Part shown: piece after piece, positions 3,103 through 35,533 of the stretch
Position numbering within the stretch: the stretch's first letter is position 1
Layout of the letters: the number at the start of each line of letters is the position of its first letter
NCBI RefSeq assembly: GCF_019880225.1
Contig: NZ_CP082284.1
Location: 2,356,001-2,420,000 of the forward strand
Direction of reading: 5' to 3'
Length of the DNA: 64,000 bases
DNA from: Halobaculum rubrum
GTDB taxonomy: Archaea > Halobacteriota > Halobacteria > Halobacteriales > Haloferacaceae
The notes under the pieces: generated by a model
What the model was told of the DNA's origin: nothing
The model's database searches: none
What the model saw: the letters and a program-made list of their open reading frames with translations, nothing else
Program-made: the position numbers and the translations under genes

Positions 3103-3762
3103 CTACTCCTCCTCGACGACCTCGTCGACGCTCGCGGCGATGTCCTCCTTCGCCCGCCACAGGTACAGCGACGCGTAGCTGCGGTACGGCGCCCAGCGCT
3201 CGGCCGCCTCGACCATCTCCGCCCGGCTCATCTCGCGGCCGTACAGCTCCTCCATCCCCTTTCTGATCCCGAGATCGCCGACGGGGAACACGTCCGGTCG
3301 CCCGAGCGAGAACAACAGCTGCATGTTCGCGGTCCACTCGCCGACGCCGGTGATCGCGGTTAGCTCCTCGCGCACCGCCTCGTCGTCCATCGCGGCGAAC
3401 GCCTCGCGATCCCAGTCGTTGTCGGCGAACGCCTCGGCGACGTTGCCGACGTACCGCGTCTTCTGTCGGGAGAGGCCGGCATCCTTCAGCGTCTCCTCGT
3501 CGGCCGCGAGCAGTCCCTCGGGCGTCACCTCCACCGCGTCGAAGAGGCGTTCGCGCGTCGCCGCCGCGGACGCCATCGACACCTGCTGGCGAAGGATCGA
3601 CACGACGAGCCGTTCGAACGGGTCCGCGGCGGGATCGACCGTGAGCGGGCCATGGCGGTCGATCACGGGGCCGAGCCGGTCGTCGCCCCGGAGCGCCTCC
3701 AGCGCCTCGCGGTCGGCCGGGTCGAGATCGTCGAACGCCTCGGCGTCTGCGTCCACTGGCAT
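3103..3762 (-). CDS. DNA-3-methyladenine glycosylase II-like (HhH-GPD) base-excision repair enzyme
   Basis: A 219-aa HhH-GPD glycosylase of AlkA type. It removes alkylated bases from DNA, giving an abasic site. The helix-hairpin-helix is at about residues 134-146 (LTAITGVGEWTANM), followed by the catalytic aspartate D163 in FPVGDLGIRKGM. The N-terminal part RLVVSILRQQVS is the usual first helix pair of the fold. No iron-sulfur cysteine cluster is present, which separates it from endonuclease III. The gene is monocistronic, convergent with archaellin 1. Confidence 0.88.
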   Translation of the reverse strand: MPVDADAEAFDDLDPADREALEALRGDDRLGPVIDRHGPLTVDPAADPFERLVVSILRQQVSMASAAATRERLFDAVEVTPEGLLAADEETLKDAGLSRQKTRYVGNVAEAFADNDWDREAFAAMDDEAVREELTAITGVGEWTANMQLLFSLGRPDVFPVGDLGIRKGMEELYGREMSRAEMVEAAERWAPYRSYASLYLWRAKEDIAASVDEVVEEE

Positions 3763-3929
3763 ACCTCGTGGTGGGCGGGCGGACGAGAAACGACTTTCGG
3801 GGACGGAACTGAGATCGTTCGAGGACTGGGAACCGTTCGAGGCCGGGCGTGCAACTCCGGAAAACTGGTGTCGTGTTTGCGTCGCGGCGGAGGGAAACGT
3901 TGAATCGGCGGGACTCCGACGCGACGCAC

Positions 3930-5909
3930 ATGGACGTTGATGACGTAGAAACGGTCGCGGTACTGGGCGCCGGAAACATGGGCCACGGGATCGCGGAGGT
4001 CGCCGCGCTCGCGGGGTTCGACGTGAACCTGCGGGACATCAACGAGGAGTTCGTTCAGAACGGCTACGACCAGATCGAGTGGTCGCTCGGTAAGCTCGCA
4101 GAGAAAGACCAGATCTCCGAGAGCGACGCCGACGCCGCGCTCGACCGCGTGACGGCTGTCGTCCCCGTCGAGGACGCCGTCGCCGACGCCGACCTCGTGA
4201 TCGAGGCGGTGCCCGAGAAGATGGACATCAAGAAGGACGTGTACACCGAGGTCGAGGAGCACGCGCCGGACCGCGCCGTCTTCGCGTCGAACACCTCCAG
4301 CCTCTCGATCACGGAGCTGTCGGAGGTGACCGAGCGCGAGGAGCGCTTCTGCGGGATGCACTTCTTCAACCCGCCGGTGCGCATGCAGCTCGTCGAGGTC
4401 ATCTCGGGCGCGCACACCGCCGACGGGACGATGGATCTCGTCGAGGACGTCGCCGAGCGGATGGACAAGACCGCGGTCCGCGTCCGGAAGGACTCGCCGG
4501 GCTTCATCGTCAACCGCGTGCTCGTCCCCCTGATGAACGAGGCGGCGTGGCTCGTCCACGAGGGCGAGGCGACCGTCGAGTCGGTCGACTCCACGACGAA
4601 GTACGACATGGGGCTCCCGATGGGGAGCTTCGAGTTGGCCGACCAGGTCGGCATCGACGTGGGCGTCCACGTGCTCGAGTACATGCACGAGGTGCTCGGC
4701 GACGCCTACGAGCCGTGTCCGCTGCTGACTGAGAAGGTCGACAACGAGAACCTGGGCAAGAAGACCGGGACGGGGTTCTACGACTACGAGGACGGCCCCG
4801 GCGCGGAGATCCCTTCCGACGAGGTCGACGAGGACGTCAAGCACGCCCTGCTGGCGGTGATGGCCAACGAGGTCGCCGGCCTGATCGGCAACGACGTCGC
4901 CGACGCCGGCGACATCGACCAGGCGGTGAAGCTCGGGGCGGGCTTCCCCGACGGTCCCGCGAAGATGGCCGACGGGATCGGTCTCGACGCGTTGCTCTCG
5001 ACGCTCGAGGAGCGCCACGAGGAGACGGGCGCCGAGCGCTACGAGGCGGTCGACTACCTCCGCGAACTCGTCGACGAGGGTCGCGGCTTCTACGGCGGCG
5101 ACGGCGACGAGGCCGGGGACGCGGTCGAGTTCGAGACGATCCGCATCGAGCGGGAGGGCCGCGTCGGCCACATCGTCCTCGACCGGCCCCACCGGATGAA
5201 CACGATCTCCGGCGAGCTGCTGGACGAGCTCGGCGTCGCGATCGAGGAGCTGGAGGCCGACGACGACGTGCGCGCGGTGCTGGTCACCGGCGAGGGCGAG
5301 CGCGCCTTCTCCGCCGGCGCCGACGTACAGAGCATGGCCGCCGGCGGCGGCGACCCGCTGCAGTCGGTCGAGCTCTCCCGCAAGGGCCAGTCGACGTTCG
5401 GGAAGTTCGAGTCGTCGGACCTGCCGGTCGTCGCCGGCATCGACGGCTACTGCCTCGGCGGCGGCATGGAGTTCGCCACCTGCGCGGACATGCGAGTCGC
5501 CTCCGAGCGGTCCGAGCTGGGCCAGCCGGAGCACAATCTCGGCCTGCTACCCGGCTGGGGCGGCACCCAGCGCCTCCGTCACATCGTCGGCGAGGGCCGC
5601 GCCAAGGAGATCATCTTCACCGCCGACCGCTACGACGCGGAGACGATGGCCGACTACGGCTTCATCAACGAACTCGTCGCGAACGACGAACTCGAGGAGG
5701 CGGCGATGGACCTCGCGCAGGATCTGGCCGCCGGGCCGCCGGTCGCCCAGCGCTACACGAAGCGCGCGATGCTCGCCGGACGCGACGACACCGACGCCGG
5801 GCTGGAGATCGAGGCGCAGGCGTTCGGCCAGCTGATGAACACCGAGGACCTCATGGAGGGCGTGATGGCGTTCATGTCCGACGAGGATCCGGAGTTCGAA
5901 GGGACGTAG
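3930..5909 (+). CDS. Fused 3-hydroxyacyl-CoA dehydrogenase / enoyl-CoA hydratase
   Basis: A 659-aa bifunctional beta-oxidation enzyme. The N-terminal half has the NAD-binding motif VAVLGAGNMGHGIAE (about residues 8-22) and two 3-hydroxyacyl-CoA dehydrogenase C-terminal domains (KTGTGFYDYEDG near 280, then about 305-385). From about 395 it is a crotonase-fold enoyl-CoA hydratase (GHIVLDRPHRMNTIS; oxyanion-hole segments AFSAGADVQ and IDGYCLGGGMEFA). The order dehydrogenase-hydratase is opposite to bacterial FadB, a layout I recall in haloarchaea. The start at 3930 was chosen because the protein begins directly with the Rossmann strand. An in-frame extension to 3849 is Arg-rich and unlike the family. 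No other fatty-acid genes are adjacent. Confidence 0.92.
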   Translation: MDVDDVETVAVLGAGNMGHGIAEVAALAGFDVNLRDINEEFVQNGYDQIEWSLGKLAEKDQISESDADAALDRVTAVVPVEDAVADADLVIEAVPEKMDIKKDVYTEVEEHAPDRAVFASNTSSLSITELSEVTEREERFCGMHFFNPPVRMQLVEVISGAHTADGTMDLVEDVAERMDKTAVRVRKDSPGFIVNRVLVPLMNEAAWLVHEGEATVESVDSTTKYDMGLPMGSFELADQVGIDVGVHVLEYMHEVLGDAYEPCPLLTEKVDNENLGKKTGTGFYDYEDGPGAEIPSDEVDEDVKHALLAVMANEVAGLIGNDVADAGDIDQAVKLGAGFPDGPAKMADGIGLDALLSTLEERHEETGAERYEAVDYLRELVDEGRGFYGGDGDEAGDAVEFETIRIEREGRVGHIVLDRPHRMNTISGELLDELGVAIEELEADDDVRAVLVTGEGERAFSAGADVQSMAAGGGDPLQSVELSRKGQSTFGKFESSDLPVVAGIDGYCLGGGMEFATCADMRVASERSELGQPEHNLGLLPGWGGTQRLRHIVGEGRAKEIIFTADRYDAETMADYGFINELVANDELEEAAMDLAQDLAAGPPVAQRYTKRAMLAGRDDTDAGLEIEAQAFGQLMNTEDLMEGVMAFMSDEDPEFEGT

Positions 5910-5984
5910 GCGAGACCGCAGGTCTCGCGAACGGCGAGGTCCTCGGGCCGAGCCGCCCAGTAAGCGATGCGGGATGTGGCCCGG

Positions 5985-6602
5985 TCAGGCCAGCTTGAAC
6001 GCCCGGATCGTGTCCCGTTCGGTCGGCTCGTTCACCACCTGTACGCCGCCCAACTCGGAGAACACGTCTCGCCAGTTCCGGTGGTACAGCGGGAACTCGT
6101 CGTCGACGTAGCTCACCTCGGCGCCCTCGCGACCCCGCTTCGCGCCGTTGCCCTCGTTCTCGGCGGTGACGAGCAGGTCGTCGCAGACCCGCACGACCTC
6201 CTCGAACACCCACACGTCGTCCGGGTGGACGTGCTGGAGCGTCTCGACGGAGTACACCGCGTCGAACGCGTCGTCGTCGAACTCCGGGAGCAGGTCCTCG
6301 ATGGCGCCCGTGTGAAACTCGCCCGTCTCCGCGAGCGTCGGGAAGAACTCGCCCATCACGTCGAACGACTCGTCGTTGATGTCGATGCCGGCGAGGCGGT
6401 CGAAGCCGTTGTGCCGGAGGTGTTCGAGGTGGCGACCCGAGCCGCAGCCGAGTTCGAGCACCCGGGCGTCCGTGCCGACGTAGAACTCGATCGCCGATCG
6501 GATCGCCTCGCTCACCTCGTCGGGTCCCTCCTCCGCGTAGTAGCGCGGGGAGAACTTCCCCTCGCGCTCGGCCCAGTCCTCGCGGACCTCGTCGGGGTTC
6601 AT
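5985..6602 (-). CDS. Class I SAM-dependent methyltransferase
   Basis: A 205-aa methyltransferase. Motif I is VLELGCGSGRHLEHL, motif II carries the acidic residue in GIDINDESFDVM, and motif IV-like DAVYSVETLQHVHPDD follows. The start ATG at 6602 gives MNPDEVREDWAERE; the frame stays open upstream but that part looks non-coding (Ala/Arg/Pro). The substrate cannot be told from sequence. It is co-oriented with the downstream-numbered SDR gene but separated by 115 nt, so operon membership is uncertain. Confidence 0.82.
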   Translation of the reverse strand: MNPDEVREDWAEREGKFSPRYYAEEGPDEVSEAIRSAIEFYVGTDARVLELGCGSGRHLEHLRHNGFDRLAGIDINDESFDVMGEFFPTLAETGEFHTGAIEDLLPEFDDDAFDAVYSVETLQHVHPDDVWVFEEVVRVCDDLLVTAENEGNGAKRGREGAEVSYVDDEFPLYHRNWRDVFSELGGVQVVNEPTERDTIRAFKLA

Positions 6603-6717
6603 ACCCGCCGGAACGGACCCCGAGCGTAAACCTCCGCCGGAGTCGATGGCGACCGGGTCGCCTGCGGTACGGGGGGATCGATCCGTGGCCCGCGCGGCAC
6701 CCGCGATCGGCGGCGTC

Positions 6718-7542
6718 TCACTCCTCGCGGCGTTCCCGGTAGTCAGGCAGGAAGTCATCCTGTAGCACCGCCGACCGACCGCCGTCGATCGTGAGGCTCG
6801 CGCCGGTGACGAATCCCGCCTCGTCGCTGGCGAGGAACGCCACCGCCGCGGCGACGTCCTCGGGGACGCCGACCCGGCCGGTCGGGTGGATGCTCGCGAG
6901 TTCCTCGCGGCGCTCCTCGTCCATGTCGCCGGTGGTCCGGTCGATGGCGACCCAGCCGGGGTTCACCGTGTTGACGCGCACGTCGGGGCCGAAGTCGAGC
7001 GCCATCGACCGGGTCATCCCGTTGATGCCGGCCTTGACCGCGTTGTACGGGAAGATGCCCGGCGTCGTCGCGAACGCGTGGTTACTGGACATGTTGACGA
7101 TCGCGCCCTCGTCCATGTGCTCGCGGGCGTGCTTCGCGCAGAGCCAGTAGGATCGGAAGTCCGTTTCGAGGACGAAGTTCCAGTCGTCCAGTTCGGCCTC
7201 GTCGGCGGCGGTGTACGTCTCGACGCCCGCGTTGTTCACGAGCACGTCGAGGCGGCCGAACTCCTCGGCGGTCGCCTCGAACAGCGCCGCGATGTCGTCG
7301 GGGTCGCGCATGTCCGCGCGGACGAAGACGGCCTCGCCGCCGGCGTCCTCGATGGCGGCGACGGTCTCGGCGCCGGCGTCCTCGCTGCGGCCGGTGACGA
7401 CCACTCGTGCTCCCTCGGCCGCGAGTCGCTTCGCGACGCCCGCGCCGATGCCACGGGTGGAGCCGGTGACGACGGCGACCGTCCCGTCGTATCTGGATCG
7501 TGGTTCGAGTTCGTCGATGGCGGAGGTGTCGAAGCTGGTCAT
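6718..7542 (-). CDS. Short-chain dehydrogenase/reductase
   Basis: A 274-aa classical SDR. It has the cofactor motif TGSTRGIG (26-33), NNAG (103-106), catalytic serines in NMSSNHAF (152/153), Y166-x3-K170 (PYNAVKAG), and the family C-terminal pattern FVTGASLTIDGGRSA. It is an NAD(P)-dependent oxidoreductase; the residues seen do not fix the substrate. It lies 341 nt downstream of a galactonate/gluconate-dehydratase-like gene in the same orientation. A role in oxidising a sugar or sugar acid for that pathway is therefore reasonable but only inferred. Confidence 0.88.
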   Translation of the reverse strand: MTSFDTSAIDELEPRSRYDGTVAVVTGSTRGIGAGVAKRLAAEGARVVVTGRSEDAGAETVAAIEDAGGEAVFVRADMRDPDDIAALFEATAEEFGRLDVLVNNAGVETYTAADEAELDDWNFVLETDFRSYWLCAKHAREHMDEGAIVNMSSNHAFATTPGIFPYNAVKAGINGMTRSMALDFGPDVRVNTVNPGWVAIDRTTGDMDEERREELASIHPTGRVGVPEDVAAAVAFLASDEAGFVTGASLTIDGGRSAVLQDDFLPDYRERREE

Positions 7543-7883
7543 TCGTTCGTCGTGTCTCGGTCGGGTGACTTGATGATTGGTTCGCGATCGGTCGGTGTCA
7601 GCGTCAGTTTCGAGGTGGGGAACGTGGCCGCGACGAACCGCCCGAAAGCCCCCGCCGTGCTACGCTCGCGCGACTCGCTGCGCGCGTTCGCTCCCGTCAG
7701 TCGCTCACGTGCTTACTTCGTCGGGCTTCGCGTAGCCCGGCGGCCCCTTTCAGTCCCACCCGATCCTTGGACGGGCATCGGTGTCACCGGCGGCCGTCCG
7801 GCGTCGTCATCCCGGACTACCCACGTACTGCGGCGGGGAGTCGGGGATCGCCGTTCGTGGATAGTCCGGCTGTTGCCGCCGGT
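7543..7883. other. Gene-free interval upstream of the SDR gene
   Basis: These 341 bases lie between two minus-strand genes. The part nearest the SDR start is a plausible promoter region. The middle, about 7635-7760, is a low-complexity segment rich in CG, with repeated CGCTCGCGCGACTCGCTGCG-like words and a strong hairpin (separate entry). I see no gene in it. Confidence 0.6.
7719..7742. repeat. Hairpin within a repeat-like intergenic segment
   Basis: CGGGCT (7722-7727), loop TCGCGT, AGCCCG (7734-7739) forms a perfect 6-bp stem that extends to 9 bp with one G-T pair. It sits in a segment whose composition and wording resemble dispersed intergenic sequences I remember from Halorubrum-type genomes. 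It could act as a terminator of the dehydratase-to-SDR direction or be a scar of a repeated element; the sequence alone does not decide. Confidence 0.4.
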
Positions 7884-9035
7884 TCACCACTCGGCGACGC
7901 TCCCGTCCGGGCGGCGCCAGACGGGGTTGTGCCAGTCGTCGTGGCCGTCGCGTTCCTCGAGCACGTCCTCATCGATGTCGACGCCGAGTCCCGGGCCATC
8001 GGGAACCGGAACGAAGCCGTCCTCGTACTCGAACACCGACGGGTCCGCGAGGTAGTCGAGCACGTCGCTCGTCTCGTTGTAGTGGATGTCGAGACTCTGC
8101 TCCTGGATGAGCGCGTTCGGCGCGACGGCGTCCAGTTGGAGACAGGACGCGAGCGCGACCGGGCCGAGCGGGCAGTGCGGCGCGATCGACACGTCGTAGG
8201 CGCCGGCCATCGACGCGATGCGGTGACACTCGGTGATGCCGCCCGCGTGGCTCGGATCCGGCTGGATGATGTCGACCGCGTTCTCCTCCAGCACCTGCTT
8301 GAAGTCGGTGCGGTGGAACAGCCGCTCCCCGGTCGCGATGGGGGTGCTGGTGCTCGCGGCGATGTCGGCGAGCGCGTCGTTGTGCTCGGGGAGCACCGGC
8401 TCCTCGATGAAGAACGGGTCGTAGGGTTCCAGTGCCGCCGCGAGCTGTTTCGCCGCGGTCTTCGTCGCCCGACCGTGGAAGTCGATGCCGATGTCGACCT
8501 CCGGCCCCACGGCCTCGCGGACCGTACGCAGGCGCTCGGCGGCCTGCTCGATCGTGTCGGGGGACTCGACGCGCTCCAGTTCGGGCGTCGCGTTCATCTT
8601 CAGCGCGGTGAAGCCCGCGTCGACCTTCTCGGCGGCCGCCTCGGCAACGCCCGCGGGGCGGTCGCCGCCGACCCACTGGTACACCCGGACGCGTTCGCGG
8701 ACCGGCCCCCCCAGAAGCTCGTGGACTGGGGCGCCGAGGTGTTTCCCCGTCAGGTCCCACAGCGCCTGATCGATCCCCGCGATGGCGGACATGAGAACGG
8801 GGCCGCCGCGGTAGAACCCCCCGCGGTACAGTCGCTCCCAGTGGTCCGCGACGGGGGCGGGATCCTCGCCGAGCAGGTACTCCTCGACGAGTTCCTCGAC
8901 GGCGCCGCGGACCGTCCGCGCGCGCCCTTCTACCACCGGCTCGCCCCAGCCGACGGAGCCATCGGCACACTCTAGCTTCAGAAACAGCCACCGCGGCGGC
9001 ACCGCGTACAGCTCGTAGTCGACGATCTCGGTCAT
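7884..9035 (-). CDS. Galactonate/gluconate dehydratase-like enzyme (enolase superfamily)
   Basis: A 383-aa member of the mandelate racemase/enolase superfamily. Metal-binding acidic residues occur in the expected order: GIDFHGR, FIEEPVLPE and IATGERLF. A late histidine lies in SIAPHCPLGPV, the pattern of D-galactonate dehydratase-type enzymes. In haloarchaea this family includes the sugar-acid dehydratase of the semiphosphorylative Entner-Doudoroff route, so gluconate, galactonate or another aldonate is possible. The product would be a 2-keto-3-deoxy sugar acid. No matching aldolase or kinase is in the window. The SDR downstream may supply the aldonate. Confidence 0.82.
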   Translation of the reverse strand: MTEIVDYELYAVPPRWLFLKLECADGSVGWGEPVVEGRARTVRGAVEELVEEYLLGEDPAPVADHWERLYRGGFYRGGPVLMSAIAGIDQALWDLTGKHLGAPVHELLGGPVRERVRVYQWVGGDRPAGVAEAAAEKVDAGFTALKMNATPELERVESPDTIEQAAERLRTVREAVGPEVDIGIDFHGRATKTAAKQLAAALEPYDPFFIEEPVLPEHNDALADIAASTSTPIATGERLFHRTDFKQVLEENAVDIIQPDPSHAGGITECHRIASMAGAYDVSIAPHCPLGPVALASCLQLDAVAPNALIQEQSLDIHYNETSDVLDYLADPSVFEYEDGFVPVPDGPGLGVDIDEDVLEERDGHDDWHNPVWRRPDGSVAEW

Positions 9036-9145
9036 ACTCGCGTGTCCCGGTCGGTCCGCAAAAGTTCACAGGTGTCCCGTCCGTGGACGGTCGCCAGCGT
9101 CCGCGGGCATCCGCCGACCTCCGCCGGCGTTTCACGAGGCCGGGG

Positions 9146-9610
9146 CTACCGCAGTTCGATCGTCAGCGTCTCGCGGACGCCGCGATCGAGACGGCGGTAC
9201 CGCGGCGACGTGCCGGACCGATCCACGTCGAACACGCGCAGGGAGACGACGAGCCGCCCCGCATCCGGCACCGTCGCTCGGACCACCGGTCCGGTCGCCG
9301 TCACGACGAGGTACGGCGGCGCGGCGACCGGGGAGGCCGGGAGCGTGACTCCGAGCGCGTCCGTGCCGGTCGCGAGCAGTCCGGGGAGGTGTTCGAGCGC
9401 ACCCGCCGCGTCGAGCGCCTCCCGCATCGCGGGGACGACGGCGTCGCGGTCGGCCGTCGACGGGCGACCCTCGGGGGCCTCCCGGTCAGTCCACCGCTCC
9501 GCTACCGCGTCGGCGACGCCGTCGACGGCGTCGAGCACCGGGCCGTGTTCGGCCAGCAGTCGCTCCCGGACGGCGGCCTCGGGATCGGTGTCGCGCCCGT
9601 CGGCTGTCAT
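9146..9610 (-). CDS. Conserved haloarchaeal protein of unknown function
   Basis: A 154-aa protein starting MTADGRDTDPEAAVRERLL. The N-terminal half is helical and acidic. The C-terminal half is beta-rich (PPYLVVTATGPVVRATVPD, RLVVSLRVFDVDRSG) and ends in LTIELR. It has no signal peptide, membrane segment or recognisable catalytic motif. I do not recognise a function. The ATG at 9610 is the only sensible start, since upstream sequence in frame looks non-coding. Confidence 0.65.
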   Translation of the reverse strand: MTADGRDTDPEAAVRERLLAEHGPVLDAVDGVADAVAERWTDREAPEGRPSTADRDAVVPAMREALDAAGALEHLPGLLATGTDALGVTLPASPVAAPPYLVVTATGPVVRATVPDAGRLVVSLRVFDVDRSGTSPRYRRLDRGVRETLTIELR

Positions 9611-9736
9611 GGTCGCTCGGTCATCCGGTCGCCCGGTCGGCGCCCCCGATTGTAAGCGCATCGGGGACCGCGGCGGGACGCCGCGTCGGCGGCCGCCACC
9701 GACCGCTTTTTGCCGCGCCGACGCCGACTCCGGGGT

Positions 9737-10006
9737 ATGAGCATGAGCACGGACGAAGTCGAAGCGGCCATCGAGGCCGGCATTCCGGACAGTGAAGCGA
9801 CCGTTACGACGCCCCGAGTCCCCGACGAGGAACACGAGGACGCCCACTTCGCCGCGGTCGTCGTCTCGCCCGCCTTCGAGGGGAAGTCGCTCGTCCAGCA
9901 GCACGAGCTGGTGTACGACGCCGTCGGCGACGCGATGACCCGGGAGGTGCACGCGCTGGAGATCAAGACGTACACGCCCGAAGAGTACGAGGAACACGGC
10001 GAATAG
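9737..10006 (+). CDS. BolA-family protein
   Basis: An 89-aa protein with the BolA signature: the loop VVVSPAFEGKSLVQQHELVY followed by the helix and VHALEIKTYTPEEY, including the invariant histidine before ALEIKT. BolA proteins partner monothiol glutaredoxins in Fe-S cluster handling in other organisms; its role in archaea is unclear. A CTTTTTGCC TATA-like box about 25 nt upstream suggests a leaderless message. A second ATG at 9743 is an alternative start. Confidence 0.82.
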   Translation: MSMSTDEVEAAIEAGIPDSEATVTTPRVPDEEHEDAHFAAVVVSPAFEGKSLVQQHELVYDAVGDAMTREVHALEIKTYTPEEYEEHGE

Positions 10007-10041
10007 GTCTCGGCTGCGGTTCCGGCGATCGGCAGCAGTTG

Positions 10042-10869
10042 CTACTCCGGTTCCGTACCGAGGCTCCGCACGTCGTCGCCGAGGCGGAGCGTCCCGCCCA
10101 CGCTTCCGTCGGGAACGGCCGTGTTCACCATCAGCCGGAACGCGTGGTCGAAGCGCGCGCCACCGCTCCAGTCGGGCATCGTCTCCTCGCGCTTGCGGAC
10201 GAACCGCGTCCGGAAGTCGTCGAACTCCGCGCCCGTGTCGGGGTCGCGCGAGGGGACGACGCAGCGCTGGCAGGGGTTCACCCCGAGCAGTTCGGCGCCG
10301 CCGACCCGGAAGCGAACCCGCTCGTCGGGCTCGGCGACGAGTCGGTCCTCGACGAACGGCTCCTCGCTCGCGAGTTCGACGTTCGCGCGGAGGCGCCGGC
10401 GCATCGAGTCGACGCCCACGCAGTCGAACCACGAGGCGACCTCGCGGAGCGTCCCCCGCGACACCACCGTCGGCCCCGTCAGCTCCGTGTCGTCCGGATA
10501 GCCCCCCGCTCGCTCGCCGATCAGATCCACCTCGTCGCCGAGGAACGCCCCGACCCACGACGCGATACCCTCTCGCTCGTCGGGGTCGTCGAGGTCGAAC
10601 GTCGCGGGCGCGGGGGCGTCGACGTCGTGTGGGGCCGCAAGCGAAACGATCCGTGCGTCGAGGTCGAACTCCGCGGACACGCGGTGGATCCGTCGTTCGT
10701 TCTTCCCGTTCACGTAGTCGCCGTCGGCGTCGACCAGCGCGAACTCCCGGTCCCGCGAGAGCCCACCGCCCGGCGCGAGTGCGGCGGCGTCCACGTCGAC
10801 CCCGTCGAGCGACTTGATCGGGAACACCCGGATCCGATCGAGCGTCGTCGCGAGCGCGTCCTCGCTCAT
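10042..10869 (-). CDS. MOSC domain protein (YcbX/mARC-like)
   Basis: A 275-aa protein with an N-terminal MOSC_N beta-barrel (RIRVFPIKSLDGVDV, then the conserved LSRDREFALVDADG). The MOSC domain follows, with RRRLRANVELAS and a cysteine pair in GVNPCQRCVVPSRDP, where the molybdenum-ligating cysteine of this family is expected. It is probably a molybdenum-cofactor-dependent reductase of N-hydroxylated compounds or a sulfur-transfer protein. The start at MSEDAL (10869) is preferred to an ATG 12 nt upstream; both are possible. No molybdenum-cofactor genes are adjacent. Confidence 0.82.
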   Translation of the reverse strand: MSEDALATTLDRIRVFPIKSLDGVDVDAAALAPGGGLSRDREFALVDADGDYVNGKNERRIHRVSAEFDLDARIVSLAAPHDVDAPAPATFDLDDPDEREGIASWVGAFLGDEVDLIGERAGGYPDDTELTGPTVVSRGTLREVASWFDCVGVDSMRRRLRANVELASEEPFVEDRLVAEPDERVRFRVGGAELLGVNPCQRCVVPSRDPDTGAEFDDFRTRFVRKREETMPDWSGGARFDHAFRLMVNTAVPDGSVGGTLRLGDDVRSLGTEPE

Positions 10870-31533: not shown

Positions 31534-32064
31534 CTACTCGTCGTTGCGCTTGACCACGTCGCCGAGGGTCATGTTCCCCGATGAGGAGCTCTCCCAGTCG
31601 GCGTCGTCGACGGACTCGCCCTCGACCAGCGAGATGCCGAGCTTCTTCTCGAGCTTCTGTTGGACGCCGTCGGAGGGGAGGATGTCCCCGCGCTCGAGCT
31701 TTCGGATGACCGAGGCCTTCTCGTTGATGTCGCTCGCGAGGTCCTCCTGGCTCAGCCCGGTCGACTCCCGAGCCTGCCGGATCCGGTCGTCGTAGTCGCC
31801 CGTGACTGTCTCCATGTCGTCGAACATGTCGTGCTGGCGCCGCGAGGACGACGAGGAGGACGACGAGGAGCCCCCGCTCCCGGAACTCGACGAGGAAGAC
31901 GAAGACGAGGAGGTGGAGTACTTCGTGGACGCCGAGGAGGCGCTCTCCGTGCGGACCTCGGTGCCGAAGTCCGAACAGTCCGAGCATAACTCCAGCTCCG
32001 CGCCCTCGACTTTCGTGGTGGTGAGCGACGCCTTCTCCGCGCCGCACATCTCACACTGGGGCAT
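31534..32064 (-). CDS. mbf1: Multiprotein bridging factor 1 (MBF1-type) regulator
   Basis: A 176-aa protein. An N-terminal zinc ribbon (C4-x2-C7 and C27-x2-C30) is joined to a C-terminal HTH (about 92-150; GLSQEDLASDINEKASVIRKLERG). MBF1 links regulators to TBP in eukaryotes; in archaea it has also been tied to the ribosome. The connecting linker is an unusual run of two serine blocks of 10 and 9 residues. The start is at 32064 because upstream in-frame sequence lacks coding character. It is divergent from the 45-aa peptide gene. Confidence 0.92.
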   Translation of the reverse strand: MPQCEMCGAEKASLTTTKVEGAELELCSDCSDFGTEVRTESASSASTKYSTSSSSSSSSSSGSGGSSSSSSSSSRRQHDMFDDMETVTGDYDDRIRQARESTGLSQEDLASDINEKASVIRKLERGDILPSDGVQQKLEKKLGISLVEGESVDDADWESSSSGNMTLGDVVKRNDE

Positions 32065-32222: not shown

Positions 32223-32360
32223 ATGTCCGAAAGTGATGCAACGATGTCGCACTGGCTCGCCGACCACCCGCGGATGATGGGCGCGCTGTTCTCGCTCGTG
32301 CTGCTCCTGTCGAGTGCGGGGAGTGCGGTTGCGGGTGCGACAGTCACGTCTGGTCCGTAG
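32223..32360 (+). CDS. 45-aa hydrophobic peptide (DUF7503-like)
   Basis: MSESDATMSHWLADHPRMMG is followed by one hydrophobic segment (ALFSLVLLLSSAGSAVAGA, about residues 21-39) and ends at VTSGP. I recognise the pattern as a haloarchaeal family of about 45 residues, recalled as DUF7503; function unknown. It is either a single-pass membrane peptide or a short precursor cut at a signal-peptidase-like AVAGA. Its last 17 bases overlap the 3' end of the convergent CHAT-protease gene. The upstream region is AT-rich with palindromes. Confidence 0.75.
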   Translation: MSESDATMSHWLADHPRMMGALFSLVLLLSSAGSAVAGATVTSGP

Positions 32361-34686
32361 ATGCCAGCATCTCCTCGGTAATATCCAGATTCCACAATAG
32401 CTCGCCGTCAAACCGTACTGGGAATCTGCCGGACTTCAGGCACTCAAACAGCCTGTCGACCGAAGTAATAATTCTGCTGGTACCCCCAGTTCCGATCCAC
32501 TGTTTCTCTACCCCCATCATGATCGGCTTCGCCATACCACCCAAGCCATGTCGCTTTGTCGGATACCAGTTCGGAGTAACTTGCACTTCTCGTTCTTCCA
32601 AATCGGTTTCTGAGATCTCCAACAGGAATCCAACCCCAGTTGAACACTGACACAACTGCACCAGCGGATCCCCCGCGATACTGTACGCGCTCTCGGCGAA
32701 CGGTCCCGTCCCGACCACGTCGAGCGCGGCGTACAGGGGGAAGCCGGCGTCGAACAGCCGCGCCAGGTCGCGGCCGACCCGGGTCGCCAGCGAGTTCGGC
32801 AGGTCCGTCAGCGACACCACGCCGCCGAGCGCGCCCGCCTCGACCAGTCCCATCCCCTGCTGGTAGGACGTGCAGGCGTTGAGGAGGAACGCGTCGACGC
32901 CCGTCCGTTCGAGGCTCCGGAGGTCGAGGAAGCCGTCCGCACACTCCATGCCGCGCTCGTCGACGTGCCCGACGTAGTGGAAGAAGTCGTGTTCCTCGGC
33001 GAGCAGGTCGCGAAGCTCGTCGCGGGTCAGATCGCGCTCCTCGCGGATGTCGAAGGTGACGTGATCGCGGAAGCCGTACGTGTCGCCCAACTCGTCGATC
33101 ATCGCCTCGTCGTTGCAGACGACGGTGACGCCGATGGTGAGGTCCTCAGCTGGCGTACGATCGAGGCGTCGCCGATACGTCTCGACGGTCGGCTTTGCCG
33201 CCCGCATGGGGAACCCCGGGCCGATCCACGCTTGTGCGATGCTATCGGCCGACTGCGGAGTCACGATCGATTCGGAGTCGTCGAGGGCGTTCTGGGTCGG
33301 ACCGCTGGTCGTCCTCGGAGTGCGCGTCGCGGGGGCTTCGGCGTCGGCGCTCCGCGTCAGCGTCGCGCCGCGGACCGCGTCTCGCGAGGCGCGAACGAAG
33401 TCGTCGAGTTCGGTCACGCCGCCGTCGCTCGTCGCCGTACTCCGTGGCGGCGGCGAACGCACCACCGACAGGTCGGCCGCGAGGAACGGCAGCGCCGAGT
33501 CGTTCTCGGCGGCGGGCACTACGTCCGTCGTGTGGGGCCACTCGAGGCAGTCGAGCGTCGCATCCGGCGGTACGTCGAGGTAGGCGGCGGTCCGCTCGGC
33601 GAGGTCGGCCTCGTACCACTCCGTCCACGGCGGATCGAGACGCTCGGTGAGCACCTCGTGGACGTGAAGGTTCACGTCGTACAGGCCCGCAGCGCAGGCC
33701 CGCGTCGCGCAATCGAGGGTGAAACAGTGCCGCAGGAGATCTTCCAGCTCGGCGGCGAGCGCGTCGGGGTCCCGCGGTAGGTCGTGCCGGTACTCGCCCG
33801 CGCGGAGATACGGCTCTGCGCTCTTCTCGACGGTCGCGGCCAGGTAGAACGCGAGCGGCGTCGCCGAGAACAGCGCGTCGTACTCGAACGGCAGCCCCAG
33901 GGTGACGCCCGTGTCGACGCGCTCGACGAACCGCGGCGTCGCGAACGTCTCGCCGCGCTCGATCAACGGCGGGTGTCCCCGCAGCGTCGGGAACGAACGC
34001 TCCGGGGAGGTGGTCGCCAGCGCCGACCCGAACGTCGAGATCGCCCGTGCGAGCCCCGCCGGCGACTCGGGTACCGTCACGGTCCCCGCCGGCGACGTGC
34101 GCCGCGACCGCGCGCCGAGCAGGATCTTCCCCGTGTCGTCGCGGCGACCGTGGGCGCAGCGTTCGTCGCCGGCGACCCCGGCGCCGACGGCGGAGCTGGA
34201 GTCGCTCCCCGGGATCTCCAGCGAAACCTGCGGGTATCGGTCCTCGTAGGAGACGCGCGCCGGTCCGTCGACGGCGACGTACGTCTTCACGGGGGCCGTC
34301 GACAGCTCGAGGACGTGCGGACCCTGGGGGATCCGGGCGGGCGCTTCCGCCGTCGCGGTGGCGACCAGGGAGTTCTCCGCGTCCCGAACGTACACGTCGG
34401 CCGTACAAAGCGGCGTTATCGACGTGGCCTCGACGGCCCAACAGCCGTCGACGGGCGCGTGAAACCGGTCGGCCGCCGCGAGTCGCGTCGCCGAGGGATG
34501 GGATCCGACAGCAGTACCCGCCGCGGCGACCGGAAGGCGAACCTCCTCGATCGCGTCGACGAGCTCGAAGCGTCCGGGGCTGCGACCCCGTGCCGGGACG
34601 AGTCGAACCGCGGCCGCGTCGGTATCGCCGGCGCCGTCGACGGCGGCATCCGCGCTCGTCGACGGTCCGGAGTCTCGTGTCGTCAT
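32344..34686 (-). CDS. CHAT-domain caspase-like protease
   Basis: A 780-aa protein. The C-terminal half holds a CHAT domain with the His/Cys dyad: H570 and H574 in FFHYVGHVDERGM (one of them catalytic) and C605 in AFLLNACTSYQQGMGL, then GALGGVVSLTDL. CHAT proteases are clan CD peptidases used in bacterial cell-death and defence systems. The N-terminal 450 residues are beta-rich then helical, with no TPR repeats that I can see. It lies 4 nt downstream of its partner gene, so the two are co-transcribed. The last 100 or so codons (32344-about 32660) are near 48% G+C by hand count of one line, against about 73% just upstream. Confidence 0.82.
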   Translation of the reverse strand: MTTRDSGPSTSADAAVDGAGDTDAAAVRLVPARGRSPGRFELVDAIEEVRLPVAAAGTAVGSHPSATRLAAADRFHAPVDGCWAVEATSITPLCTADVYVRDAENSLVATATAEAPARIPQGPHVLELSTAPVKTYVAVDGPARVSYEDRYPQVSLEIPGSDSSSAVGAGVAGDERCAHGRRDDTGKILLGARSRRTSPAGTVTVPESPAGLARAISTFGSALATTSPERSFPTLRGHPPLIERGETFATPRFVERVDTGVTLGLPFEYDALFSATPLAFYLAATVEKSAEPYLRAGEYRHDLPRDPDALAAELEDLLRHCFTLDCATRACAAGLYDVNLHVHEVLTERLDPPWTEWYEADLAERTAAYLDVPPDATLDCLEWPHTTDVVPAAENDSALPFLAADLSVVRSPPPRSTATSDGGVTELDDFVRASRDAVRGATLTRSADAEAPATRTPRTTSGPTQNALDDSESIVTPQSADSIAQAWIGPGFPMRAAKPTVETYRRRLDRTPAEDLTIGVTVVCNDEAMIDELGDTYGFRDHVTFDIREERDLTRDELRDLLAEEHDFFHYVGHVDERGMECADGFLDLRSLERTGVDAFLLNACTSYQQGMGLVEAGALGGVVSLTDLPNSLATRVGRDLARLFDAGFPLYAALDVVGTGPFAESAYSIAGDPLVQLCQCSTGVGFLLEISETDLEEREVQVTPNWYPTKRHGLGGMAKPIMMGVEKQWIGTGGTSRIITSVDRLFECLKSGRFPVRFDGELLWNLDITEEMLASTDQT

Positions 34687-34690
34687 ACGG

Positions 34691-35533
34691 TCACCGAAGG
34701 GCGTTCCATTCTGTCGTTCCCCAGCCGATGATGTGCCATCGTTCCTCTGGAACGGACGCCGTTTCGCGACGCCGAAGCTCGACGATCACGTCGAGTTCGT
34801 CGTCGAGCAACTCGACGAACTCGGCGACAACGGGGTCCGAACGGGGCTCCCCGCTGACGGGGCGAGGGAGATGAAAGTGTGCCATGCCGCCGCGGTCGCG
34901 TGTGGTCCGCGACACCTCGCGCAACAGCGACCCCGTCGCGTCGCCCCCCAGCGTCGCACTGAGCATGTCGATCCGGTAGACGCCGACGCGAAGCCCCAGC
35001 CGGTCGGAACGATCCCCGTCGACATCGGCGATGGCGTCCAGCACCGCGGTTCGGATGGCCCCCGGGTCCCCGACCGCCGTCGGGCCGGCGTCCTCGTCGA
35101 CGCCCCCGTCGAGGTCCAGCCGATCCGGCCCGGCGTCGGAGTCGCCGGCCGTTCCCGTCGTGCCGGCCGCTTCGGAGGCCGAGTCGAACCCGCTCGAGGC
35201 GCTCACGTCCGTTCCGGATGCGGCGGCCGGATCCCGGACCGCCCCGTCGAGGCGGACGACCGCGGCGTCGTCGTTCGCGGCGTCGACGCCGTCGGGAAGC
35301 CACGCGTTCGGTGCCTCCGTTGCGCCCGTCGTGAGCGCGAGCACTCGCCGGCGCCGCCGGTGCGGCGCGCCGAAATACCGCGACGACGCGACGCGGTAGG
35401 CCTCGTCGGAGACGTCCCCGGTGACGAGCACGCAACACCCGTCGTCGAGCTCGGCCAGCGCCGCCGAGAGCGGCCGATCGGACCTCCGGCCGATCGGCCC
35501 GTCGGCGTCGGGTCCGTCCGTCGTGCCGGTCAT
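34691..35533 (-). CDS. Partner protein of the CHAT protease (DUF7504-like)
   Basis: A 280-aa protein. The ends are conserved-looking: RPLSAALAELDDGCCVLVTG near residue 20, then RVGVYRIDMLSATLGG, GMAHFHLPRP and a final ERWHIIGWGTTEWNALR. The central part (about 85-165) is an Asp/Gly/Ser low-complexity stretch. The secondary structure resembles a decayed RecA/KaiC-like fold without a Walker A motif, which is how I remember the haloarchaeal DUF7504 family. It probably acts with the CHAT protease encoded 4 nt downstream. The ATG at 35533 is preceded by GGCGAAGGT and a TATA box. Confidence 0.72.
   Translation of the reverse strand: MTGTTDGPDADGPIGRRSDRPLSAALAELDDGCCVLVTGDVSDEAYRVASSRYFGAPHRRRRRVLALTTGATEAPNAWLPDGVDAANDDAAVVRLDGAVRDPAAASGTDVSASSGFDSASEAAGTTGTAGDSDAGPDRLDLDGGVDEDAGPTAVGDPGAIRTAVLDAIADVDGDRSDRLGLRVGVYRIDMLSATLGGDATGSLLREVSRTTRDRGGMAHFHLPRPVSGEPRSDPVVAEFVELLDDELDVIVELRRRETASVPEERWHIIGWGTTEWNALR

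Follow-up and report, generated by a model that had tools for sequence, protein, structure and literature searches.

A variable peptide tail and the C-terminal domain of a convergently encoded CHAT protease change together in haloarchaea

We analyzed a locus in a 64,000-nucleotide stretch of Halobaculum rubrum (contig NZ_CP082284.1, positions 2,356,001 to 2,420,000; the whole stretch is hereafter the window), in which the gene of a 45-residue peptide of the DUF7503 family converges on the gene of a 780-residue protease of the CHAT (caspase-fold) type, with their 3' ends overlapping by 17 bp. Comparison across haloarchaea revealed linkage of the two genes, co-variation of the peptide tail with the C-terminal domain of the protease, replacement of these two parts as one cassette, a conserved cleavage-site pattern and Gly-Pro end in the peptide, and a CHAT fold with intact catalytic residues in the protease. 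We propose, as a reading on which we are nearly evenly divided, that the pair is a two-gene cognate recognition module, in which the tail of the peptide is matched to the C-terminal domain of a CHAT receptor-protease. The genetic architecture itself, in which a short peptide and a caspase-fold protease have hypervariable ends that match each other, appears to be new.

The peptide gene was tail to tail with a CHAT gene in all 43 DUF7503 loci fetched (42 of them independent, from about 35 genera and ten families), and the two 3' ends ranged from 17 bp of overlap to about 260 bp apart. Among 292 haloarchaeal genomes, in a presence table crossed by hand from two listings and with genus labels as assigned by the search tool, DUF7503 was present in 250 and this CHAT family in 271 (86-93%); all 250 genomes with DUF7503 also had CHAT, and 21 had CHAT only. 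Because the Pfam matches were strong and the convergent pair stood in every DUF7503 locus fetched, the observation is far beyond chance. The first-pass annotation of this DNA was right in its coordinates, gene sizes, 4-nt gap and 17-bp overlap, and linkage supports the functional tie that it drew between protease and peptide. It had also proposed a search for co-occurrence of three families, the third being the DUF7504 protein encoded next to CHAT, and had named absence of linkage elsewhere as a refutation; linkage held for peptide and CHAT (42/42 independent loci, 250/250 genomes), and DUF7504 was found in about half of the loci. In several of the CHAT-only genomes, a convergent hydrophobic open reading frame (ORF) ending in Gly-Pro lay at most 31 bp from the CHAT end (L089, L090, L095, L096, L111), as it did at the second CHAT copy of L129; these six ORFs were uncalled or marginally called by the profile, and their CHAT proteins are divergent paralogues. 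As a background, 1.0% of open segments overall, and 0.6% of those that are hydrophobic, end in Gly-Pro. The pair was also seen on plasmid records of Halomarina sp. BND7, where CHAT is annotated as 'caspase family protein', and of Halorussus vallis, where the peptide is unannotated.

Several loci departed from the simple pair. The CHAT gene was in pieces in two CHAT-only genomes, G048 (L103) and G072 (L102), a joint decay of the pair. Genome G124 (L096, L106, L111) carried 12 CHAT-family matches and no DUF7503, an apparent lineage-specific expansion, with some longer convergent hydrophobic ORFs ending in Gly-Pro. Tandem arrangements of CHAT-peptide pairs and of peptide genes were observed, as was a run of three consecutive CHAT genes (L117 of G273, 3365-10608; G012:C1, 486534-486796; G023:C1, 417046-423293). 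At L091 (1119-1277, minus strand), a hydrophobic ORF ending in YYGP lay in divergent orientation at the 5' end of a diverged CHAT gene, the sole case seen on that side.

This distribution bears on the defence reading of the first-pass annotation. In the form of it weighed here, abortive infection against viruses, the peptide would act as bait or sensor and viral antagonists would drive the hypervariability. CHAT proteases do occur in CRISPR and other defence systems (PMC10028731). The locus, however, occurred in 271 of 292 genomes and is adjoined by housekeeping genes in the window; defence loci are usually patchy in spread. No component matched the PADLOC-DB defence models at E <= 1, and no homologue was found among 2.9 million viral contigs and a phage collection. 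An arms race with viruses alone would also leave the matched change of two host parts unexplained. Nothing pointed to abortive infection in particular. Thus, the defence reading was weakened, and we regard it as very improbable. The locus was also considered as a defence island, which was rejected.

The window peptide matched Pfam DUF7503 (PF24335) with 64.5 bits (E 6.6e-18; gathering score 27). The leader was strongly conserved in the alignment of the 43 loci, with the consensus [YWF]LA-x-[HN]P[RK]M-x-G-x-LFT-x-LLLLSQAG and an invariant P and G, and was followed by a signal-peptidase-like [AV]-x-A site; all 43 peptides conformed to this pattern, the last position being G in 2 of them. The tail was usually 7-9 residues long and ended in Gly-Pro in 42 of the 43 loci, and charged residues made up 6 of 616 in tails. 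Within three genera, non-synonymous divergence (dN) was 0.017-0.028 in the leader, 0.23-0.31 in the tail and 0 in the Gly-Pro end. There were 68 distinct last-nine-residue tails among 88 peptides, a set used for tail diversity and the Mantel tests and chosen by its Gly-Pro end, the unbiased figure for that end being 42/43. The hydrophilic part past the cleavage-like site was longer in divergent families, which retained the A-x-A site and the Gly-Pro end. A mature part of variable length with a constant Gly-Pro end is more in keeping with a secreted product than with a membrane anchor, and the positive side of the leader together with the cleavage-like site suggests that the peptide is exported. 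An A+T-rich conserved block was also observed about 100 bp upstream of the peptide gene (L133-L170), and synonymous changes were fewer in leader codons than in CHAT codons; both may reflect a regulatory or RNA-level constraint.

A secreted peptide could also be a halocin-like antagonist that harms non-kin, with the C-terminal domain recognizing the cell's own variant and CHAT destroying it or protecting the cell. The leader is signal-like, and polymorphic toxin/immunity loci likewise swap matched variable parts in the manner of cassettes. However, an uncharged tail of about eight residues is not toxin-like, a 780-residue protease is large for an immunity protein, and CHAT occurs without the peptide but the peptide never without CHAT; we therefore consider antagonism quite unlikely.

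The 780-residue protein of the window had no match in Pfam, NCBIfam or PADLOC, nor in the PDB searched by sequence. The Pfam CHAT profile (PF12770) weakly matched 15 of 42 family members (best E 3.6e-4), and a search of the H. rubrum genome with it found nothing, the profile being too weak for this family. An AlphaFold2 model of the protein (predicted local distance difference test score, pLDDT, 82.7; predicted template modelling score, pTM, 0.84) gave Foldseek matches to separase, SAVED-CHAT, gingipains, Csx29 and procaspase-3, and H570, G573, H574, N603 and C605 were invariant in the family alignment (n = 42). The model thus gives the large protein a CHAT/caspase fold with intact His and Cys, from which protease activity is predicted, in agreement with the CHAT protease and the residues H570/H574 and C605 that had been read from the sequence at first. 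No transmembrane helix was predicted in it (maximum 19-residue hydropathy 1.2), and TPR and HTH families gave no match, the structural matches being proteases. Distant CHAT relatives (E ~1e-70) were found in G299, G308, G317 and G326, genomes from a non-haloarchaeal family within the same phylum.

Synonymous (pS) and non-synonymous (pN) change in CHAT was even through the protease domain and then jumped over the last 90-110 codons. From the body of the gene to this C-terminal domain (C-domain), pS rose from 0.37 to 0.77 and pN from 0.05 to 0.35 in genus g27, and the corresponding values were 0.37 to 0.81 and 0.10 to 0.43 in g2, 0.42 to 0.64 and 0.09 to 0.26 in g7, and 0.29 to 0.75 and 0.08 to 0.49 in the window's genus. 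The high synonymous change indicated that the C-domains are old alleles, and not only the outcome of relaxed selection. Protease domains of the window's genus were 87-96% identical and C-domains 19-77%, and the relative with the identical tail, GATVTSGP, was the one with 77% C-domain identity. Partial Mantel correlations of tail with C-domain given the protease region were positive in six of six genera (r 0.54, 0.24, 0.50, 0.40, 0.31 and 0.45; p 0.0005, 0.006, 0.0005, 0.006, 0.035 and 0.05), with a combined p of 5e-9; such tests are liberal under shared ancestry, and the cassette evidence given below weighs more. This joint variation of the peptide tail and the CHAT C-terminus goes beyond the first-pass annotation, and its evolutionary pattern is what led us to cognate recognition.

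The hypervariability of the C-domain went with the presence of the peptide. The C-domain/body ratios were 1.5-2.6 for pS and 3.0-6.5 for pN in genera with the peptide, compared with 1.17 and 1.44 in genus g13 (six genomes with intact CHAT and no detectable peptide), 1.04 and 1.5 in g44 (CHAT without visible peptide), and a pN ratio below 1 in two g74_2 CHAT genes without visible peptide, these control sets coming from a few (three) lineages. Since C-domain hypervariability was largely gone in the peptide-less CHAT genes, a general artefact of 3'-end variability was rejected, and the comparison argues that this hypervariability is tied to the presence of the peptide. The peptide-less genomes also bear on a toxin-antitoxin-like account, in which the newly made peptide, still in the cytosol and not yet inserted into the membrane, would bind the C-domain and hold a death protease in check (or activate it); killing would follow when the short-lived peptide is lost, and hypervariability would avoid cross-neutralization. 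The co-variation of tail and C-domain is as expected from this account, the peptide is perhaps too short to be exported co-translationally, such that the tail could meet CHAT in the cytosol, and suicide driven by triggered CHAT proteases is established for other CHAT systems. However, intact CHAT genes persist in genus g13 and others where the peptide is undetectable, which argues against an obligatory antitoxin, and the locus is near-universal rather than patchy; this account therefore seems rather unlikely to us.

Exchange of tail and C-domain as a unit was clearest where their history could be separated from that of the flanks. The distances of promoter, leader and protease region in g27 agreed mutually (r 0.30-0.72), as did those of tail and C-domain (r 0.66), whereas correlations between these two sets were -0.08 to 0.13, and the tail correlated with its own contiguous leader at only 0.13. 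Three sister pairs showed a block of about 400 bp, bounded by the leader/tail junction on one side and the end of the protease domain on the other, that was mostly 30-65% identical between flanks of 93-100% identity in most intervals. Over the 22 sister pairs with protease identity of at least 0.95, tail identity was 0.60 where the C-domain had been replaced and 0.97 where it was the same, and tail and C-domain were correlated at r = 0.92. Both blocks were not independent of the flanks in g7, so that exchange is clearest in g27 and g2. No convincing orphan copies of the C-domain were found near the loci; the single short hit, to a segment of a C-domain in L148, is probably where the CHAT gene of that locus ends after a frameshift.

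A substrate relation, close to what the first-pass annotation had suggested, has also to be weighed against this pattern. The C-domain would recognize the cognate DUF7503 peptide and CHAT would cut its leader region, freeing a membrane-active or signalling fragment. Such a relation would suit the obligate linkage, as well as the pairing of a constant protease with a constant leader and of a variable C-domain with a variable tail. A signal-peptidase-type site, however, sits just at the border of leader and tail, and ordinary substrate recognition does not account for the exchange of ancient alleles, and we regard this relation as unlikely.

Returning to cognate recognition, we suggest the following sequence of events. 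DUF7503 would be a precursor whose conserved leader carries the peptide through the membrane, where signal peptidase would cut past the A-x-A site and release an uncharged peptide of about eight residues ending in Gly-Pro (GATVTSGP in the window). This peptide may act from outside by re-entering the cell, where CHAT, a putatively cytosolic caspase-fold protease, would bind the cognate tail through its C-terminal domain of about 90 residues; binding would either activate or inactivate the protease, and the result might be, for example, differentiation or the death of the cell. Tail and C-domain abut at the 3' ends of their genes, which would allow matched pairs to be exchanged as one cassette. 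Somewhat more tentatively, we read the locus as an archaeal peptide pheromone or self-recognition system, in which a lineage-specific secreted peptide ending in Gly-Pro is matched to a domain on a caspase-like protease, pherotypes are borne on cassettes, and kin identity may be wired to proteolysis or death.

Several points weigh against this proposal. CHAT is intact in some genomes in which no peptide was detected; the peptide of L124 has no Gly-Pro end; the leader is conserved beyond the need of a plain Sec signal and may have another partner; and no dedicated transporter or processing gene was among the conserved neighbours. Finally, tail and C-domain are physically linked, and their co-variation may partly be co-inheritance, although the failure of the tail to track the leader with which it is contiguous weakens simple linkage as an account.

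The closest likeness was to the pherotype loci of bacteria. The peptide precursor adjoins its receptor in ComQXPA loci of Firmicutes, and the mature peptide and part of the receptor are variable, with comQ clusters only 65-70% identical between alleles (PMC4408185); in haloarchaea, likewise, a matched hypervariable peptide and proposed receptor part lie inside conserved flanks. In contrast to ComQXPA, the haloarchaeal locus has neither the histidine kinase ComP nor the isoprenyl transferase ComQ as a widely conserved neighbour, its genes are convergent, a caspase-fold protease carries its proposed receptor domain, and its host belongs to the Archaea. RRNPP systems of Firmicutes and their elements have a small propeptide gene next to that of its intracellular receptor, which reads the exported propeptide (PMC10075063), and Rgg/SHP also has a short hydrophobic precursor (PMC3679016). 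The leader, A-x-A site and variable C-terminal tail of DUF7503 fit such propeptides, with export being predicted; however, the proposed haloarchaeal receptor is not a TPR/HTH regulator and has no relation to RRNPP receptors in sequence or fold. Thus, the haloarchaeal locus may work similarly to these pherotype loci (ComQXPA, PMC4408185; Rgg/SHP, PMC3679016), with which it has no proteins in common, and if the pheromone reading is true it could also count as a new, unrelated variant of the pherotype kind. Tail-to-tail gene order would be a simple answer to the problem of joint specificity change, as the variable ends of ligand and receptor form one stretch of DNA.

Csx29/Craspase and SAVED-CHAT share the CHAT protease domain by fold (PMC10028731; PDB 7zoq, 8tl0), but no Cas protein, SAVED or TPR part was seen at the haloarchaeal locus, where the conserved partners are the 45-residue peptide and a KaiC-like protein, the latter at about half of the loci. 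Unlike bacterial gasdermin/CHAT loci, the window has no adjacent gasdermin pore former, its neighbours being of other families. A caspase-type protease activity without an assigned gene was described in Haloferax volcanii (PMC3615174), a species that carries DUF7503. The CHAT family is a candidate source of it, and offers a candidate gene family for a long-unassigned haloarchaeal activity, although caspase substrates are not necessarily cleaved by proteases of the CHAT type. Few quorum-sensing signals of archaea have been identified, and the one in H. volcanii withstands proteinase K and has a size of about 3 kDa at most (PMC12240190); it probably differs from the DUF7503 tail peptide, and short Gly-Pro peptides are not mentioned in that report. 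A literature search returned no paper that deals with CHAT in haloarchaea or with peptide pheromones of these organisms, and no report of peptide-based cell recognition in archaea. As the sequence spells out the ligand part, synthetic peptides to match it can be prepared and tried directly.

The product of the gene upstream of CHAT in the window was identified as DUF7504 (PF24336; 101.3 bits against a gathering score of 27, E 1e-28), with both genes on the minus strand and 4 nt apart. Its AlphaFold2 model (pLDDT 78.8) resembled KaiC by Foldseek (E 6e-6), consistent with a KaiC/RecA-like fold, and no P-loop was seen in its sequence. Where present, DUF7504 was usually upstream of CHAT in the same orientation, in accordance with the co-oriented partner described at first. 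Because it occurs in only about half of the loci, it is an optional partner and not a required sensor of a trigger, a sensing role having been suggested at first. CHAT and, in part, DUF7504 were the only conserved neighbours of the peptide across loci. Both DUF7503 and DUF7504 are listed in Pfam without function, and no paper naming either was found in a literature search. The features of the locus are collected in table 1, in which the extent of the cassette was transferred from sister-species pairs of another genus where this block alone is replaced.

Table 1. Features of the peptide-CHAT locus, in positions of the window
Feature	Position	Strand	Basis
DUF7503 peptide gene, 45 residues (MSESDATMSHWLADHPRMMGALFSLVLLLSSAGSAVAGATVTSGP)	32223..32360	+	Pfam PF24335 match
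CHAT (caspase-fold) protease gene, 780 residues	32344..34686	-	Fold and catalytic residues
DUF7504 protein gene, 280 residues; upstream of CHAT, co-oriented	34691..35533	-	Pfam PF24336 match
Peptide leader, residues 1-37: short N-terminal part, H-P-R, hydrophobic core, A-V-A site	32223..32333	+	43-locus alignment
Variable tail, predicted mature octapeptide GATVTSGP	32334..32357	+	Conserved Gly-Pro end, high tail dN; cleavage predicted
CHAT catalytic segment: H570, H574 (HYVGH), C605 (LNAC)	32872..32979	-	Invariance in 42 sequences
CHAT hypervariable C-terminal domain, about residues 690-780; proposed tail-recognition domain	32344..32619	-	Co-variation with tail
Expected exchangeable cassette: peptide tail and CHAT C-domain, joined by the 17-bp 3' overlap	32331..32619	both genes	

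A gene of the multiprotein bridging factor aMBF1 (window 31534-32064, minus strand) runs divergently from the peptide gene, and GATATC repeats were observed in the upstream region that both genes may have in common.

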